A stretch of DNA of 33,822 nt from Magnetococcales bacterium DCbin2 (GTDB lineage Bacteria > Pseudomonadota > Magnetococcia > Magnetococcales > UBA8363). The notes under the pieces were generated by a model that saw only the letters and a list, made by a program, of their open reading frames with translations, made no database searches and had not been told where the DNA came from. A program made the position numbers and the translations under genes. Location of the stretch: contig PEAO01000024.1 of the NCBI GenBank assembly GCA_002753615.1, positions 2,078 to 35,899 of the forward strand. The letters are read 5' to 3'. Positions 1,736-13,494 of this stretch are shown piece after piece. Position 1 is the stretch's first letter. Every line of letters begins with the position of its first letter.

Positions 1736-1755
1736 GAAAGTCGGCTAATAACTTG

Positions 1756-1778
1756 CCCCCTCCCGCCAAGGGAGGGGG
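1756..1778. other. intergenic hairpin between two cytochrome genes
   Basis: A perfect 9-bp stem (CCCCCTCCC / GGGAGGGGG) encloses the loop GCCAA. It lies between the stop of the HAO-like gene and the start of the nonaheme-b gene. No U-tract follows, so it is more likely an mRNA-stability or processing element than a full terminator. It would let the two genes share a transcript at different levels, which is an inference. Confidence 0.6.
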
Positions 1779-1797
1779 TGGTCAGGAGGATTCATCC

Positions 1798-3810
1798 GTG
1801 AAACGGCCCCCCAGCATTGTATGGATCGTGTTTTTTTGGGTATTGTTTCTCCCTGGAGCGGTATTTGCTGCCGATCCGGCGGCGGAACTGATGGAGAGGA
1901 AAGAAGTTTTCTTGGTCACCAAGGATACGGACAATAAGGCATGTCTCTATTGTCACGGTGTTGATGGATTTAGTGCCCCGATGAGTGAGGGGCGCAACCA
2001 AGAGCGAAAGAATTTGTTCGTCGATGCGGATCGTCTTGCCAAGAGCGTCCATGGTTCGCGTTCCTGCGTCGATTGTCATTCGGATATCACGAAAATTCCT
2101 CATGACAAGAACAAGGAATACAATGTTAGCTGTGTTCAGTGTCACACCAACCTGAACAACGAATTAAAGGTGAAGGAAGGGGAAGCTGGGGAAAAGAAAA
2201 CTCTGGGCCATGTGGTTGAGAATATCGCATCCTATCTGAGTTCTGTTCATGCCCAACCCAGAAAGGGCGATCCCAACAAGCCGAACGCTTATTGTTCTGA
2301 TTGTCATACGGGACATGCCATTTTTGCCAAGGGGACTCCTGAGCGCAAGGATTACCATATGAATTCGCCGGCCATGTGCGGGCGGTGCCATGAAAAGCAA
2401 CTTCTGGAGTATGAAGATTCCCTGCATGGTGGTGCGGTGTTGCGTTTGGGCGATGAGAAGTTTCCGGTCTGCGGAGATTGTCATACCACCCATAAAATTT
2501 CGCATCCTGAATCGACGTATGGTCAGTTGGTGATCACCAAAAGCTGCGGTGGTTGTCACAAAGACTCCTATGAGAGTTATACCTCCACCTATCATGGGCA
2601 GGTCAATACGTTGGGGTACGTCAATACGGCCAAATGTTTTGACTGTCATGAGGCCCACAAAAACAGGCGGGTGACCGATCCCGAGTCTTCGGTGCATCCC
2701 GATAACCGGGGAAAAACGTGTAAACAGTGCCATGAGAACGTCTCTCCGGGCTTTCTCTCATTTCAACCCCACGGCAATAACCACTCCTTTGATAAATATC
2801 CCGAGATGTGGTTGGCTTCCAAGGGGATGATCGGTTTGTTGGTTGGTGTTTTTGCTGTGTTTTGGACCCATACCTTTTTATGGTTCCTGAGGGAAAGAAA
2901 AGAGAAAAAACTGGGTATCCATCATAAATTGCCCCAGGATGTGGCTGAGGCTCCGTTGCCGGCGACGGGTACTCGGGTCAATGTGCAGCGTTTCCCGGCG
3001 TTGTGGCGGCTTGCCCATATTTCGTTTGCCCTTTCCATCATGGTGTTGGCTGCGACGGGGTTGACGGTCCTTTTTGCCGATAGTTTCTGGGCGCAGACCG
3101 TTGCCAAAGCCTTGGGTGGGGCGAAGGTCATGGCGATTATTCATCGTGTGGCCGGGGCGGTTTTCATCGGTGTCTTTTTCATCCATCTGGTGGCGGTTTT
3201 GCATAAGTTGTTGATCAAACACCGCGCAACCTTTGAATGGTTTGGTCCCAATTCGCTGGTGCCGCGTTGGCAGGATCTTTGGGATCTGATCGCCATGATC
3301 AAATGGTTCTTTGGCAAAGGGCCAAAGCCATATTTCGACCATTGGACCTATTGGGAGAAATTTGATTATTGGGCACCATTCTGGGGTGTATCCATCATCG
3401 GTGGTTCGGGTCTTGTCCTTTGGTTCCCGGTTTTGGCGGGTGAGTATTTGCCGGGATGGATATTCAATGTGGCGACCATTTTCCACGGCGAAGAGGCGGT
3501 TTTGGCTGTCATATTTATCTTCTCAGTCCACTTCTTCAATTGCCATCTGCGTCCTAGCAAGTTTCCGCTGGATATCATGATGTTTGTGGGCAACATGCCG
3601 ATGGAAGAGTTCAAGGAGGAGCGGACGGTCGAGTTTCAACGGATGGTTCTGGAGGGCAAGCTGGCCGAAATCATGGTGGAACCACCCACCAGCAAGGCTA
3701 AGAAGTATTCGAGAATTCTTGGCTTTACGTTGATTGGTATCGGTCTGACCTTGCTGTTCTTCGCCCTGACGGGAATCGGAACACATTTGGTTCATTTCTT
3801 CTCTTCGTGA
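1798..3810 (+). CDS. nonaheme cytochrome c fused to a cytochrome b561/FdhI-like membrane domain
   Basis: The 670-residue protein has a signal peptide (KRPPSIVWIV... ending VFAA), then a periplasmic part with nine CxxCH sites (CLYCH, CVDCH, CVQCH, CSDCH, CGRCH, CGDCH, CGGCH, CFDCH, CKQCH). A transmembrane helix (WLASKGMIGLLVGVFAVFW) follows, and then a multi-helix b-type cytochrome with histidines in the helices near AHISFAL, IIHRVAG, VFFIHL, IFHGEE and FSVHFFN. This resembles the b subunits of formate dehydrogenase and thiosulfate reductase. It should exchange electrons between the quinone pool and periplasmic cytochromes, most simply the upstream HAO-family protein. The GTG start at 1798 is preferred over in-frame codons from 1753, because AGGAGG sits just before it and it begins exactly at the signal peptide. 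A strong terminator follows. Confidence 0.85.
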   Translation: MKRPPSIVWIVFFWVLFLPGAVFAADPAAELMERKEVFLVTKDTDNKACLYCHGVDGFSAPMSEGRNQERKNLFVDADRLAKSVHGSRSCVDCHSDITKIPHDKNKEYNVSCVQCHTNLNNELKVKEGEAGEKKTLGHVVENIASYLSSVHAQPRKGDPNKPNAYCSDCHTGHAIFAKGTPERKDYHMNSPAMCGRCHEKQLLEYEDSLHGGAVLRLGDEKFPVCGDCHTTHKISHPESTYGQLVITKSCGGCHKDSYESYTSTYHGQVNTLGYVNTAKCFDCHEAHKNRRVTDPESSVHPDNRGKTCKQCHENVSPGFLSFQPHGNNHSFDKYPEMWLASKGMIGLLVGVFAVFWTHTFLWFLRERKEKKLGIHHKLPQDVAEAPLPATGTRVNVQRFPALWRLAHISFALSIMVLAATGLTVLFADSFWAQTVAKALGGAKVMAIIHRVAGAVFIGVFFIHLVAVLHKLLIKHRATFEWFGPNSLVPRWQDLWDLIAMIKWFFGKGPKPYFDHWTYWEKFDYWAPFWGVSIIGGSGLVLWFPVLAGEYLPGWIFNVATIFHGEEAVLAVIFIFSVHFFNCHLRPSKFPLDIMMFVGNMPMEEFKEERTVEFQRMVLEGKLAEIMVEPPTSKAKKYSRILGFTLIGIGLTLLFFALTGIGTHLVHFFSS

Positions 3811-3895: not shown

Positions 3896-4151
3896 AAATA
3901 TTGAAAGAAAAAAGGGGTCTGGGGGATTGCCCCCAGGGTTTTGACTTTGTTTTTGAATTTAAACAAAAATGTTTCCATGTTCCGCTTTTGACCTTGATTT
4001 TTGATCTTAAACAAAAATGTTTCCATATTTAAGTTTTTGGTTTAAATTAAAAAAACTAAAATCAAAAGCGAAACATGGAGACCTTTTTGTTTAAATTCAA
4101 AATCAAAACCCTGGGGTAATTCCCCCAGACCCCTTTTTTCTTTCAATATTT
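3896..4151. repeat. 256-bp imperfect inverted repeat, MITE-like
   Basis: The left arm (3896-3991) and right arm (about 4061-4151) are near reverse complements. Both begin at their outer ends with AAATATTGAAAG, and each contains a G-run/C-run palindrome flanked by GGGGTC or GACCCC. A direct repeat (AAACAAAAATGTTTCCAT) occurs inside at 3961-3978 and 4009-4026. The element is AT-rich between the G/C blocks and contains no transposase or credible coding frame. The layout suits a non-autonomous miniature transposable element, or a very long intergenic hairpin. I could not define a clean target-site duplication. It fills the gap between the two cytochrome operons. Confidence 0.65.
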
Positions 4152-4207
4152 ATCGAATGTCAACACGCCCTAGGCTGATAGGGCGGTGGAACAAAAAGGA
4201 CGTTTGC

Positions 4208-5818
4208 ATGGCTCGATCGACGTGGCGTGGCCTGATCGTTTTGGGATTATTGGCACTGTCCTGGTTTTTGGCTTCCACCGTCGTCATGGCTGATGATGTC
4301 AGTCGTAGCATCGCCCCTCCCACCTCGACGACTCGTCACAGTAAATTTCATATCTTAGACGGCCCTTTTGAGTCTGGCAGAGAGGTCACACGGGCCTGTC
4401 TGACCTGTCATACGGAGGCGGCCAACCAGGTCCGCCGCTCTGTCCATTGGACGTGGGAATACAAGTCTGCCGATTCCGACGAAAAAAAGGGTAAATTGCA
4501 TTTGCTCAATACGTTTTGCGGAACGGTATCGACCAACATGAGTTTGTGTACCTCGTGCCATGTTGGTTATGGCTGGCAGGAACCGGGGAACGATTCCGTG
4601 GTGGATGAACAGGTCGATTGCTTGGTGTGCCACGAACAAACCAGAAAATATAAAAAATATAATTATGGTTCGGCGGTATTGAAATATAAAGACCGTGTTC
4701 TCAAAAAACCGGACTTTCCGTCGATGGCCCACAGTGTCACGCGACCGACACGTTGGAATTGTGGATTCTGTCATTTTTACGGAGGTTCCGGCGATGGTGC
4801 CAAGCATGGTGATTTGGACTCCTCACTGTTTGATCCCAATCATCAGTTGGATGTCCACATGGATGCGGCGGGATTGAACTTTGATTGTGTCACCTGCCAC
4901 ACCGCCAATGATCATGCGATTACGGGATCGCGGTATGACATGAAAGCACAGGATCCCATCGGTGTGGATCGTCCCGGGCATACCGATGCCACACGGAGTT
5001 CTTGTGCCTCCTGCCATGGCAATGCGCCCCATGGCGATAAAAAAATCAACGATCATACCGATCGGGTTGCCTGTCAGACCTGCCACATTCCAAGGATGGC
5101 ACGCGGTGGTGTCGGAACCATGGTGTTCTGGGATTGGCGCACTGCTGGGAAGCGGGCGGGAGATTTGGAGCCGCCGGAGGCCTTTGAAAGGGAGGGGCAT
5201 ACCTCCAAAATGATGCATACCAAATATTCGGATAGTCATGGAACCTCGTGGTGGGCGGAGAATCTGGTCCCAAAATTTGCATGGTTTGACGGTCGCATTC
5301 GTTATCTTGATATCAAGCAAACGGTGGATGGTTCGGAATTGGTCCGTATCAACCGTATTCTGGGTACGCCGGGCAATCCGGCTGCCAGGATTTGGCCGTT
5401 TAAGAATACGTTGGCGATGATGCCCTATGATCCGGTCAATAAAATCATGATTGCCAATCATCTGATCAGGAATGCACCGGAAGATAAGGAGGCGTTTGAG
5501 GCCAGTTTTGATTGGCGTCGGTCGGCAGCGGTTGGCATGAAGGCGAAAGGGTTGCCATTCAGCGGTGAGGTCGCTTTTGTGGAAGCGGTTATGTCGTTTC
5601 CTTTGACCCATATGGTTGCCCCGAAGGGGGAGGCCCTTTCTTGTCTTGAATGTCATCGGGATGGTGGGCGATTGGAAGGTTTGGAGGGGGTGTACTTGCC
5701 AGGACGGAAAAACTTCCCATTGTTGTACGCCATCGGGATTGGAGCGGTGGTTGTGACGCTGATCGGGATTTTTATCCATGCGGCCATTCGTGGGTTGATG
5801 GCTTGGGGGAGGCACTAG
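4208..5818 (+). CDS. octaheme c-type cytochrome, tetrathionate reductase (OTR) family
   Basis: The 536-residue protein has a signal peptide (MARSTWRGLIVLG... VMA), eight CxxCH sites (CLTCH, CTSCH, CLVCH, CGFCH, CVTCH, CASCH, CQTCH, CLECH) and a C-terminal membrane helix (LLYAIGIGAVVVTLIGIFIHAAI). The arrangement CLTCHTEA...HWTWEY followed by NTFC...CTSCHVGYGW matches my memory of the octaheme tetrathionate reductase family first described from Shewanella. Those enzymes reduce tetrathionate and, in vitro, nitrite and hydroxylamine; the true substrate here is unknown. The start at 4208 is preferred to an in-frame ATG at 4157 because it directly begins the signal peptide and has AAGGACG upstream. 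The b-cytochrome gene begins 10 bases after the stop, so the two should form an operon and a complex. Confidence 0.87.
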   Translation: MARSTWRGLIVLGLLALSWFLASTVVMADDVSRSIAPPTSTTRHSKFHILDGPFESGREVTRACLTCHTEAANQVRRSVHWTWEYKSADSDEKKGKLHLLNTFCGTVSTNMSLCTSCHVGYGWQEPGNDSVVDEQVDCLVCHEQTRKYKKYNYGSAVLKYKDRVLKKPDFPSMAHSVTRPTRWNCGFCHFYGGSGDGAKHGDLDSSLFDPNHQLDVHMDAAGLNFDCVTCHTANDHAITGSRYDMKAQDPIGVDRPGHTDATRSSCASCHGNAPHGDKKINDHTDRVACQTCHIPRMARGGVGTMVFWDWRTAGKRAGDLEPPEAFEREGHTSKMMHTKYSDSHGTSWWAENLVPKFAWFDGRIRYLDIKQTVDGSELVRINRILGTPGNPAARIWPFKNTLAMMPYDPVNKIMIANHLIRNAPEDKEAFEASFDWRRSAAVGMKAKGLPFSGEVAFVEAVMSFPLTHMVAPKGEALSCLECHRDGGRLEGLEGVYLPGRKNFPLLYAIGIGAVVVTLIGIFIHAAIRGLMAWGRH

Positions 5819-5827
5819 AGGCTAGCC

Positions 5828-6862
5828 ATGGAAGAGAACCGCCAATTATTATTTTCCCGTTATGAGCGATTCTGGCATTGGTCACAGGCTTTACTGATCA
5901 TCGCTCTGATGGTGACTGGTTTTCATGTGACTGGCTTATTGCAATGGTTGGATTATAAACTGGCGGCCCAGTGGCATCGCTATTTTGCATGGAGCCTGAT
6001 CTGCTTATGGACGTTTACCATTTTTTGGCATCTCATCACTGGGGAGTGGCGGCAGTATATTCCCAGCACGGAAAAAATGTTGGAGGTTATCTACTATTAT
6101 TCAAAAGGGATTTTTGATCCGAATCTTCAGCATCCGTTCAAGGTGACGAGGCGTTTGAAGCATAATCCGTTGCAGAGGCTGACCTATCTGGTTTTGAGCG
6201 TTGTTATTTCTCCGATGTTGTGGATTTCCGGGCTGCTTTTCTTTTATTACAACGAATGGGATCAGTTGGGAATTCCCAACCTATGGCTTTCGGGTGTGGC
6301 TGCGGTCCATGTTGCCATGGCGTTTGCGATGGTTTGTTTTTTTTGTTTGCATGTTTATATGGTTTTCTTGGGTAAGCCCGCTACAGCGCAGCTTAAGGCA
6401 ATGCTCACGGGTTATAGGGTCGAGGATATTCGGCTGGATGCGGATCGGGAATATACGGTCATGCTGGTGGAAGATGATAGCGACTTTGCCCGGATGATTC
6501 AGGAATGGTTTGAGACGAATGGGGTGAATGAAACAGACAGAATATTACCGGTGCGTGTAACGATGGTTTGTATTGAAACATTGCATGAAGCGGTCAAATA
6601 TTTAAACAATAAATCGGTGGATTTGATTTTACTGGATCTTGATTTGCCCGACAGCCGGGGAGTTGAGACCCTGCGGAGCGTCATGTCTGTGATCCGGGAT
6701 GAGCCTGTTTTGGTGTTGACGGGGGAGGAGGATGAGAATTTGCAGTCCATGATCATTCGTGAAGGGGCGCAGGAATTTTTGATCAAAGAAAATCTGGATC
6801 GTCATCATTTGCTTCGTAAAGGTCGCTTTGCCATGGAGCGGCAATGGTTTTTACGGCAATGA
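5828..6862 (+). CDS. cytochrome b561-type membrane protein fused to a response-regulator receiver domain
   Basis: Residues 1-190 form a four-helix b-type cytochrome with candidate heme histidines at 17, 33, 49, 68, 161 and 175, a plausible quinol-side partner of the upstream OTR-family cytochrome. Residues 208-344 form a full receiver domain: acidic cluster VEDDSD at 214-219, phosphoacceptor Asp270 in LLDLDLPD, Thr298 in LTGE and Lys320 in FLIK. All residues needed for phosphorylation appear present. The reading frame is continuous, with no sign of a stop or restart at the junction, so the fusion seems genuine. The receiver would lie on the cytoplasmic side after the last helix. I infer that phosphorylation, or binding of a partner, could tune electron flow. 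No histidine kinase gene is in the window. Confidence 0.85.
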   Translation: MEENRQLLFSRYERFWHWSQALLIIALMVTGFHVTGLLQWLDYKLAAQWHRYFAWSLICLWTFTIFWHLITGEWRQYIPSTEKMLEVIYYYSKGIFDPNLQHPFKVTRRLKHNPLQRLTYLVLSVVISPMLWISGLLFFYYNEWDQLGIPNLWLSGVAAVHVAMAFAMVCFFCLHVYMVFLGKPATAQLKAMLTGYRVEDIRLDADREYTVMLVEDDSDFARMIQEWFETNGVNETDRILPVRVTMVCIETLHEAVKYLNNKSVDLILLDLDLPDSRGVETLRSVMSVIRDEPVLVLTGEEDENLQSMIIREGAQEFLIKENLDRHHLLRKGRFAMERQWFLRQ

Positions 6863-7032: not shown

Positions 7033-7107
7033 TGGAGCCGCCTCTCGGAATTGAACCGAGGGCCTGCTCATTACGAGTGAGCTGCTCTACCCCTGAGCTA
7101 AGGCGGC
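7033..7107 (-). tRNA. tRNA-Thr (anticodon CGU)
   Basis: Read on the minus strand, a full cloverleaf folds. The acceptor stem GCCGCCT pairs with AGGCGGC, the D arm is GCTC/GAGC, the anticodon stem is GCTCA/TGAGC with loop CTCGTAA, and the T arm CTCGG/CCGAG carries TTCAATT. The discriminator T is followed by an encoded CCA at 7033-7035. Anticodon CGT reads the threonine codon ACG. The 3' end points left, toward the cytochrome genes and away from the prophage. Confidence 0.96.
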
Positions 7108-11105: not shown

Positions 11106-11434
11106 ACCAAACGATCAATCAGTCCATGACCCATGAACAACAGCAGGCGGCACTTGTTGGCGAAGTACTCTGGAGGGCGTATCCGGGCTATCGCTGGGCG
11201 GTGACGGTGGTGGGTGGTTTGGCCCGTATCCGTAATTTGGATCTTTCTGGGCGATGGGGGTTTGATATTTCATTGGAAACATTAAAAACCGATCCGCTCA
11301 TGAAAAAGGTTATCATGGCGGGTGGTGAAATTTTGGAACGGTATCGGCTGGCGCGGGCAGGGGCTGATGCCGATCAAATCAACGCATTGCCCCGGTGGAT
11401 CACCGGCGATGCCAAGGGAGAGAGTGACGCATGA
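11102..11434 (+). CDS. phage protein of unknown function before the portal
   Basis: This 110-residue protein (MNQTINQSMTHEQQQAALVG...) has a mixed sheet/helix pattern (YRWAVTVVGGLARIRNLDLSG, then KVIMAGGEILERYRLARAG). It shares ATGA overlaps with the tiny gene before it and the portal gene after it. Small proteins often lie between terminase and portal in podovirus-like phages, but I cannot name this family. Confidence 0.7.
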   Translation: MNQTINQSMTHEQQQAALVGEVLWRAYPGYRWAVTVVGGLARIRNLDLSGRWGFDISLETLKTDPLMKKVIMAGGEILERYRLARAGADADQINALPRWITGDAKGESDA

Positions 11435-13494
11435 ATCGTGATCACGCAGCACCGGATGAGTTTTTTACCGATGGCGCTGACCATTGGCAGGAAGAGGATC
11501 AACCTGTCGTCCCTGAAATTTCCGATGAAACCTGGCTCAAGTTGTCCCAGGAGGCTTATGAAGGGAGTCGGGAGTGGATGGAGCGCAATCTGCGCCGGCA
11601 ATGGCGGCGTAACTTGGCCAATTTTCGTTCGCGTCATCCCGATGGGTCGAAATATCATTCGGAACTCTACAAACGACGCTCATCGCTGTTTCGGCCCAAA
11701 ACACGCAATGCCCTGCGGCGCAATGAAGCCCATGCCGCAGCGGCGTTTTTTCAAAATTCGGAGTTGGTGAGCCTGGAACCCAGGGATGATGGTGACCTCA
11801 GACAATTGGCCAGTGCCGAGGTTTTCAAGGAGATCATTCACCATCGCCTGGACAAGGATATCCCATGGTTTCAGACGCTCATTGGGGCCTTTCAGGATTC
11901 CATGGTGCATGGCATTTGCGTTTCCAAGCAAACCTGGGAATACACCGAAGAGATGCGGGCGGTAGAAACGGTTCTCACCGATCCCATGACTGGGCAGGTC
12001 ATTTGTGATTCTCGTGGGGAGCCGATTATCCATCGGCGTATGGAGCGGGTGCGTGTTGTGGATCGACCGCGCATCGAGTTGCTGGAGCCGGAAAACATTC
12101 GGTTGGATGCCGGTTCTGACTGGCGCGATCCCATTCGTTCCTCACCTTTTGTCATCCATATCATCCCCATGCGTTTGGACGAAATCAAAAGAAAGATGGA
12201 GGGGGGGTGGCGTCCTCTGGATGAAGAGGCGATCCTGGCCGCCGCATCCGAGACGGAGGCGTTCAACGATAGCATTCAGAGGCAACGCCAGGATCGGATT
12301 CCCGATACCGGACGCCGGAGTATTCGTGAATTTTCTATCCTTAATGTTCATGAAAATTTTATTCGGCGCGATGGCCAGGAGTGGGTCTTTTTTACACTGG
12401 GGTCCAAGGCTTTACTGAGTGATCCGGTATTGGTGACGGAGGTTTATCCCCATGGTCGTCCGTTTGTCATGGGGACTTGCATTATCGAGGCGCACCGTCT
12501 GTATCCGGCGGGATTGGTGGAGTTGTCCCAGGATTTGCAATCGGCCATCAACGAGGTTCAGAACCAGCGATTTGATAATGTGCAACTTGTCCTGAACAAA
12601 CGTTATTTTGCCAGACGTGGCAGTGGTGTGGATTTAAAGAGTCTGACCCGCAATGTCCCTGGTTCTGTGACGATGATGACCAACCCAGAGTCTGATGTTG
12701 TCGTTCATCAAACACCGGATATCACCACCAGTGCCTATGAGGAACAACAACTGCTCAATGCCGATTTTGATTCGGCTATTGGTACGTTTGATCAGGGGAG
12801 TGTCAATGTCAACCGTGCCCTCAATCAAACGGTTGGGGGGATGAATATTCTTTCGGCGGATGCCAATTTGACCACGGAATATCTGCTGCGGGTTTTTGTG
12901 GAAACTTGGGCGGAGCCGGTGTTACGGCAGTTGGTCAAGTTGGAGCAACATTTTGAGACCGACGAATTTATTCTCACCATGGCGGGACAACGTTCCCCTT
13001 TGGTCCAGCGATTTGGATTGAATCCCATACAGGATCGGTTGTTGGAGCAGGAATTGACGGTACGGATCAATGTGGGGGTCGGGGCCACCAACACACAAAA
13101 TCGGCTGGAGCGGTTTTTGATGGGGGCACGCACGGTTTCCGACTTACTGGGGATGTCTCCCGATCCCAAACAATTGGTATCGGAGGTGTTTGGTTTATTG
13201 GGTTACAAGGATGGGGTCCGTTTTTATCCCCAACTCAATGCCCCGCCGCCCGCTCCGCAACAGGATCCCCTGTTGGAGGTGGAACAGGACAAGGTGAATG
13301 TGCAACGGGAAGCGTTGCGTTTGCAACGTCAGATTGAGGCGGCACGCTTGCAAACCCGGCGTGAAGAGCAAATCCGTTCCGACGCCTTGAAAAAAACCGA
13401 ACTGGCTACCAAAGCCCATTTGGAACACATGCGCATCCAGGCCGCCTTGGCGACGGGGGCCAAGGGGGGAGGACGAAATAGCTTGCCCAGGTAG
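11431..13494 (+). CDS. portal protein (head-tail connector)
   Basis: This 687-residue protein forms the dodecameric DNA gate at the capsid vertex. The size, the place after the terminase, and the pattern SLFRPKTRNALRRNEAHAAAAFF ... EVFKEIIHHRLDK ... ENIRLDAGSDWRDP fit podoviral portals. The later segment AINEVQNQRFDNVQLVLNKRY resembles the long portal helix region. The last 60 residues are a charged helix rich in Gln, Arg and Glu (EVEQDKVNVQREALRLQRQIEAARL), as in portals with a C-terminal barrel. The start overlaps the previous stop. Cassette A interrupts the operon immediately after it. Confidence 0.88.
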   Translation: MNRDHAAPDEFFTDGADHWQEEDQPVVPEISDETWLKLSQEAYEGSREWMERNLRRQWRRNLANFRSRHPDGSKYHSELYKRRSSLFRPKTRNALRRNEAHAAAAFFQNSELVSLEPRDDGDLRQLASAEVFKEIIHHRLDKDIPWFQTLIGAFQDSMVHGICVSKQTWEYTEEMRAVETVLTDPMTGQVICDSRGEPIIHRRMERVRVVDRPRIELLEPENIRLDAGSDWRDPIRSSPFVIHIIPMRLDEIKRKMEGGWRPLDEEAILAAASETEAFNDSIQRQRQDRIPDTGRRSIREFSILNVHENFIRRDGQEWVFFTLGSKALLSDPVLVTEVYPHGRPFVMGTCIIEAHRLYPAGLVELSQDLQSAINEVQNQRFDNVQLVLNKRYFARRGSGVDLKSLTRNVPGSVTMMTNPESDVVVHQTPDITTSAYEEQQLLNADFDSAIGTFDQGSVNVNRALNQTVGGMNILSADANLTTEYLLRVFVETWAEPVLRQLVKLEQHFETDEFILTMAGQRSPLVQRFGLNPIQDRLLEQELTVRINVGVGATNTQNRLERFLMGARTVSDLLGMSPDPKQLVSEVFGLLGYKDGVRFYPQLNAPPPAPQQDPLLEVEQDKVNVQREALRLQRQIEAARLQTRREEQIRSDALKKTELATKAHLEHMRIQAALATGAKGGGRNSLPR

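Follow-up and report, generated by a model that had tools for sequence, protein, structure and literature searches.

The window, by which we mean the whole stretch of 33,822 nucleotides analyzed here, carries on its forward strand an open reading frame that occupies exactly positions 5828 to 6862, starts with ATG, ends with a stop codon at 6860-6862 and encodes a protein of 344 amino acids. Pfam recognizes two domains in it, Ni_hydr_CYTB (PF01292) at residues 9-195 (E = 4.1e-21, 76 bits against a curated cut-off of 30.1) and Response_reg (PF00072) at residues 211-322 (E = 3.9e-14, 53.2 bits against a curated cut-off of 30.2). The union of a cytochrome b and a receiver in a single reading frame, claimed in a preliminary description of this DNA, is thus borne out. 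Three parts can be delimited, all on the forward strand: a cytochrome b part resembling four-helix, b561/PhsC-like quinol-side subunits (residues about 1-204, positions 5828-6439; PF01292 and hydropathy), a short linker that, in the alignment, separates the receiver from the conserved TGY at which the cytochrome ends (about residues 205-208, positions 6440-6451), and a C-terminal receiver, predicted to be cytoplasmic (residues 209-344, positions 6452-6859; PF00072, structural model and Foldseek). Pfam finds no further output domain behind the receiver.

The cytochrome part has about four transmembrane helices, according to both the model and hydropathy, together with conserved histidines, and belongs to the b561-type family PF01292. 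Four of these histidines, His17, His50, His161 and His175, are invariant in all 19 rows of the alignment, and from the family we take them to be the likely heme b ligands. The best NCBIfam match is the thiosulfate reductase cytochrome B (PhsC, NF011582), at 87.4 bits for a cut-off of 204; judged by this score, the cytochrome is a relative of PhsC and not a member of NF011582. When the PDB was searched by sequence for the cytochrome part, no meaningful match appeared. Hydropathy and loop charge, crude as they are, suggest that the cytochrome has its two termini on the inner side of the membrane, which would leave the receiver on the cytoplasmic side, hanging from the fourth helix.

The AlphaFold2 model gives the receiver five strands and five helices, with block-mean pLDDT mostly between 80 and 90 in this part; its pTM of 0.44 makes the placing of the receiver against the membrane part unreliable. 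Among solved receivers, the best Foldseek match to the receiver part is 5hm6 (BfmR), with a target-normalised TM score of 0.90. The acid pair Glu215/Asp216 (codons 6470-6475), the candidate phosphoacceptor Asp270 (6635-6637), the switch residue Thr298 (6719-6721) and Lys320 (6785-6787) are all found, so that the phosphorylation site set of the window copy is complete, as had been described.

Immediately upstream, with its stop codon 9 nucleotides before the start of the fusion gene, lies a gene for an OTR-family octaheme cytochrome c (4157-5818, forward strand), which has eight CXXCH motifs and, by hydropathy, a C-terminal transmembrane helix. Its TIGR04315 score of 523 bits (cut-off 375) and the eight motifs place it in the OTR family. 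Lys216 and Asp213 align with Lys153 and Asp150 of the Shewanella OTR (1sp3 alignment, positions counted along the alignment), Lys153 being presumably the axial ligand of that enzyme. Passages on the Shewanella OTR describe a lysine axial ligand (PMC12285233) and the reduction of nitrite, hydroxylamine and tetrathionate (PMC4484225). By analogy, one of these three compounds may be the substrate of the OTR in the window.

Two other multiheme genes precede it on the same strand. The first (203-1735) encodes a HAO-like octaheme cytochrome c (PF13447), with a weak match, far below the cut-off, to the NCBIfam hydrazine dehydrogenase. The second (1753-3810; Pfam and ORF scan) encodes a c cytochrome with nine CXXCH motifs fused to a second b561-type membrane part; this neighbor possibly belongs to a separate operon. 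Between it and the OTR gene, positions 3896-4148 hold an intergenic dispersed repeat with matches on both strands and related copies at several sites of locus L055. On the other side, synteny with a relative ends at 6860. A tRNA-Thr gene follows on the reverse strand (7033-7107), and downstream of it the window contains a prophage-like block (within 7033-33822) with an SU10-type portal gene at 11431-13494; the tRNA and this block split the gene cluster from the sequence that comes next in the relative. In the close relative G004 (L055:11039-13836), the fusion gene is convergent with genes for an MFS and ferric-reductase protein and for a magnetochrome protein, which we take to be MamZ- and MamX-like, so that the OTR cluster there borders magnetosome genes. 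The MamZ-like gene of the window's own genome is on a different contig (C156).

The preliminary description had named a sequencing error joining two genes as the event that would undo its claim, and the window does come from a draft Magnetococcales MAG (201 contigs, 78% complete). However, a search for the same fusion in other genomes, which that description had also called for, found it in 15 of 48 genomes of the class Magnetococcia, as 19 copies that are 44 to 95% identical and full length in 15 assemblies, with one copy, in G030, cut by a contig end. The nearest named record is the Magnetococcales MAG nWRX3bin6, whose protein is 95% identical. In the comparison with G004, the window's receiver shows 20 synonymous and 8 nonsynonymous changes (dN/dS 0.095), and the cytochrome part has a dN/dS of 0.044; as judged from these codon comparisons, the receiver is under purifying selection, like the cytochrome. 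The reading frame being conserved in relatives, the idea of two genes fused by an error of sequencing or assembly is refuted, and we give it practically no weight. The fusion is authentic, and a receiver is covalently joined to a metabolic enzyme subunit, in one reading frame, in all 19 copies.

The cytochrome has a strong match in 20 of the 48 genomes of the class, and OTR (TIGR04315) is found in exactly these 20 genomes, at 27 places. Seven cytochromes from six genomes have no receiver (G018, G025, G028, G029 with two, G001 and G007), and that of G043 is truncated where its contig stops; G001 and G007 hold both receiver-less and receiver-bearing cytochromes. In 15 of the 19 fusion loci, the window among them, the gene immediately before the fusion is OTR, separated from it by at most 9 nucleotides or overlapping it slightly. 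In three more copies, from three different families (G020, G022 and G009), OTR, cytochrome and receiver form a single in-frame polypeptide (OTR-CYB-REC), where the membrane helix of OTR is followed by a short basic or proline-rich stretch and then by the cytochrome; a model of an 899-residue chain of this type, with a pLDDT of 55.4 and a pTM of 0.40, is of too low a quality to be informative. In the case of the nineteenth fusion, from G007, the OTR gene sits on a separate contig, where no cytochrome adjoins it. In G005, ankyrin-repeat proteins are encoded upstream of OTR (L033:6100-7095 and L042:12209-12934), and at L042 a molybdopterin/NrfD enzyme set lies further out, beyond the ankyrin-repeat gene. 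The preliminary description had seen in the protein a signal-dependent control of electron flow to the OTR-family enzyme, or else a redox sensor. Its link to OTR stands: the fusion has been conserved and is associated with OTR genes, and its role is probably to help electrons reach OTR. The dependence on a signal stays conditional, as detailed below.

Outside Magnetococcia, OTR is beside the cytochrome or fused to it at all 20 loci considered, none of which has a receiver, the protein stopping shortly after the cytochrome. Two such loci, L078:1447-3573 and L114:638-2815, have OTR and cytochrome b in frame or in one open frame, again with no receiver. The searches for the fusion covered Pseudomonadota and plasmid records. 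In the phylum set, 40 of 398 genomes match, and the 20 outside the class all give matches ending by query residue 204, with no full-length fusion. None was found either in the class of G245 (match in 30 of 369 genomes) or in that of G072 (6 of 78); the class of G150 (27 of 369) gives largely the same set as that of G245. Among the matches listed, the three that extend beyond residue 211 (G512, G656 and G405) and three others with long open frames contain no receiver, and among plasmids, none of the 22 records with a match spans 80% of the query.

We propose that the fusion protein is the quinol-oxidizing partner of OTR, equipped with a cytoplasmic domain that responds to phosphorylation, a proposal drawn from sequence features that we regard as evenly poised between right and wrong. 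The four-helix cytochrome b would draw electrons from the quinol pool and hand them to the periplasmic, membrane-anchored OTR, while the receiver would sit on the cytoplasmic side, attached at the fourth helix. Asp270 would receive its phosphate from a histidine kinase or a phosphorelay whose genes lie elsewhere, and the ensuing conformational change would turn quinol oxidation, or its coupling to OTR, up or down. Phosphorylation, its direction and the identity of the kinase are the steps that we infer.

Where could the receiver have come from? When 28 cytochrome parts are placed in a tree, rooted by midpoint only, the 19 fusions are separated from nine receiver-less proteins by a branch supported at 100/97; the nine include two proteins of the genus to which the window belongs and two of genomes outside the class. 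All fusions thus fall in one clade, which points to a single origin, and the receiver was likely gained once. With a profile of the fusion receivers, the nearest non-fusion kin are two cNMP-binding-REC proteins (144.8 and 136.5 bits), followed by the receivers of a KaiC/kinase cluster and their equivalents in relatives (112 to 129 bits); C-terminal receivers of hybrid kinases score 15 to 29 bits. In a tree of 39 receivers, fusions and cNMP-REC proteins group with 95/94 support, and fusions alone with 86/77, one branch being very long (G042). Profile scores and tree together indicate that the domain probably derives from a family of signaling receivers that the order already possessed. The cNMP-binding-REC and KaiC-cluster receivers of Magnetococcales are of the same subfamily, with a stretch of similar length between first helix and second strand; they differ in that they belong to signaling proteins with other partners and no cytochrome. 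The KaiC-type cluster at L056 (G000:C194:5000-22000) comprises a PAS kinase, two receivers, a KaiC-family ATPase, a PAS-GGDEF protein and a REC-kinase-REC protein, and one of its receivers counts among the closest relatives of the fused one.

This kinship with signaling proteins, both by profile and by grouping in the receiver tree, also suits a reversed flow of information, in which the cytochrome would sense the redox state of quinone or heme, or the electron flux, and the tethered receiver would report it. Uptake, storage or loss of phosphate by the receiver would then be altered, and the protein would act as a membrane-tethered sink or flux sensor tuning taxis or gene expression. The terminal position of the receiver, with no output domain after it, is compatible with this scheme, and sensing by enzyme activity is reportedly a reviewed concept (PMC6978683), which we counted in its favor. 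However, the close pairing with the enzyme gene, up to the single OTR-CYB-REC chain, fits a control of the enzyme at least equally well. We consider such outward signaling unlikely.

Is the receiver a phosphorylation domain in all copies? Tabulated from the alignment, the full set (Glu or Asp at 215, Asp216, Asp270, Thr or Ser at 298, Lys320) is present in nine of the 18 complete copies, namely in the window, in G004, in two of the four copies of one subclade, in none of the six of another, and in five of the six from outside the genus. Asp270 is kept in 17 of 18 copies, as is Lys320 (Arg in the remaining one), and residue 298 is Thr or Ser in 11; it is His or Asn in the six-copy subclade and Ala in one copy. 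In G006a, with Asn270 and Gly216, the receiver is probably dead as a phosphoacceptor. The loss of receiver function in homologues that the preliminary description had named as a refutation is thus in part borne out, and the window copy is complete; these losses count against phosphorylation as a general rule for the family, not against phosphorylation of the window copy.

The missing switch residue in seven of 18 copies, and the missing Asp270 in one, with other positions conserved, could also mean that the domain is a pseudo-receiver, that is, an interaction or assembly module that works independently of phosphorylation by recruiting a cytoplasmic partner or dimerizing the cytochrome. Leu240, Pro241, Leu269, Leu273 and Pro293, which are among the best-conserved positions, indeed look structural rather than catalytic. 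In contrast, the near-universal retention of Asp270 and Lys320 and the intact window site are at odds with this view, and the losses at Thr298 and Asp270 are limited to the six-copy subclade and to two copies of another. All in all, a pseudo-receiver seems improbable to us, a shade more so than outward signaling.

If the receiver is phosphorylated, a cognate kinase might be encoded close by, as the preliminary description had proposed to verify. Over the first 12 kb of the contig from which the window comes (L031), a region that includes the gene cluster, no kinase gene was found. With six kinase query domains, neighboring kinases were found at four of 19 fusion loci and at four of 17 receiver-less loci, which indicates no association between kinase and fusion; given this lack of enrichment, a dedicated neighboring kinase is ruled out as a conserved feature. 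In a single genome, G011, a kinase is co-directional with the fusion: 15 nucleotides after it, on the same strand, follow genes for a DctP and Peripla_BP_6 protein, a hybrid kinase with two receivers and an HPt domain, and a receiver-SpoIIE phosphatase. L049:2099-8761 holds such a set, with DctP fused to Peripla_BP_6, a hybrid kinase with HPt and a receiver-SpoIIE protein, which we take to be TorT/TorS-like. The same-strand arrangement makes a dedicated phosphorelay possible in G011. This operon is suggestive only, since relatives of the binding protein and hybrid kinase occur in much of the class, and in both G026 and G020 a related pair is encoded away from the fusion; G013 has such a pair and no fusion.

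Returning to the fusion protein as a phosphorylation-responsive partner of OTR, what counts for it is the spread of the fusion in the class, its single clade, the pairing with OTR, the OTR-CYB-REC chains, the co-occurrence in the same 20 genomes, the purifying selection on the receiver, the conservation of Asp270 and Lys320, the complete site of the window copy, the aligned lysine of OTR, the gene order in G011 and the existence of other receivers on metabolic enzymes. The lack of a conserved kinase in cis, the losses at Thr298 and Asp270 and the unreliable placing of the two domains count against it. A stronger version, which we put forward tentatively and hold to be somewhat doubtful, is that a phosphorelay gates a quinol dehydrogenase directly, bypassing transcription, so that phosphorylation of the receiver would control the transmembrane electrons delivered to the octaheme reductase. 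The KaiC-cluster kinases, or else a hybrid kinase of the TorS type, may act as phosphodonor for such a gate, and signal input, electron wire and catalytic hemes would be merged in one OTR-CYB-REC polypeptide in three lineages.

How does this system compare with known ones? The Shewanella oneidensis OTR (1sp3) is likewise a TIGR04315 protein with eight CXXCH motifs and the aligned lysine and aspartate near the active heme; a passage in PMC4484225 gives its electron source as CymA, via a small tetraheme cytochrome. In contrast, the OTR of the window has a membrane helix at its C-terminus and is paired with a cytochrome b of its own, to which a receiver is attached. Four-helix b cytochromes of PF01292 connect quinones with a periplasmic enzyme, and the cytochrome of the window shares this fold and family with PhsC, formate dehydrogenase gamma and the cytochrome b of Ni-Fe hydrogenase. 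It differs from these three in failing to reach the curated cut-off of any of the corresponding NCBIfam equivalogs, in having OTR as partner instead of a molybdenum or nickel enzyme, and in its receiver. Another close parallel is the OTR-cytochrome b pair of other Pseudomonadota (including the OTR-CYB fusions of G730 and G476), with the same two genes, adjacent or fused, and cytochromes 36 to 52% identical, but without the receiver.

Receivers on metabolic enzymes form an accepted class with a narrow phyletic spread, as stated in a section of the review PMC5847659, and response regulators with an enzymatic output, such as REC-glycosyltransferase and KaiC-REC, are similar in this respect (PMC5847659). 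Here, however, the output is an integral-membrane respiratory cytochrome, which is absent from the examples of that review section (PMC5847659). We found no published case of a receiver on a respiratory cytochrome b, in a literature whose coverage was light on subscription journals, and passages of PMC1183210 and PMC10376724 make no mention of such a fusion. A receiver on an enzyme is known, and the receiver on a respiratory cytochrome b is real, conserved and, by this literature, apparently new, its function being putative.

Two-component control of respiration is normally transcriptional, as with ArcA, NarL and RegA. The gain of a receiver in this lineage provides a natural comparison, because both versions of the cytochrome coexist in G001 and G007, and it offers a direct way to test whether two-component systems act on a respiratory enzyme post-translationally. 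If our proposal is true, a receiver in the electron-input subunit would permit fast switching of a respiratory branch without new protein, which would suit a cell swimming up and down redox gradients: in a magnetotactic lineage, respiration through an octaheme reductase may be directly switched by a phosphorylation signal.
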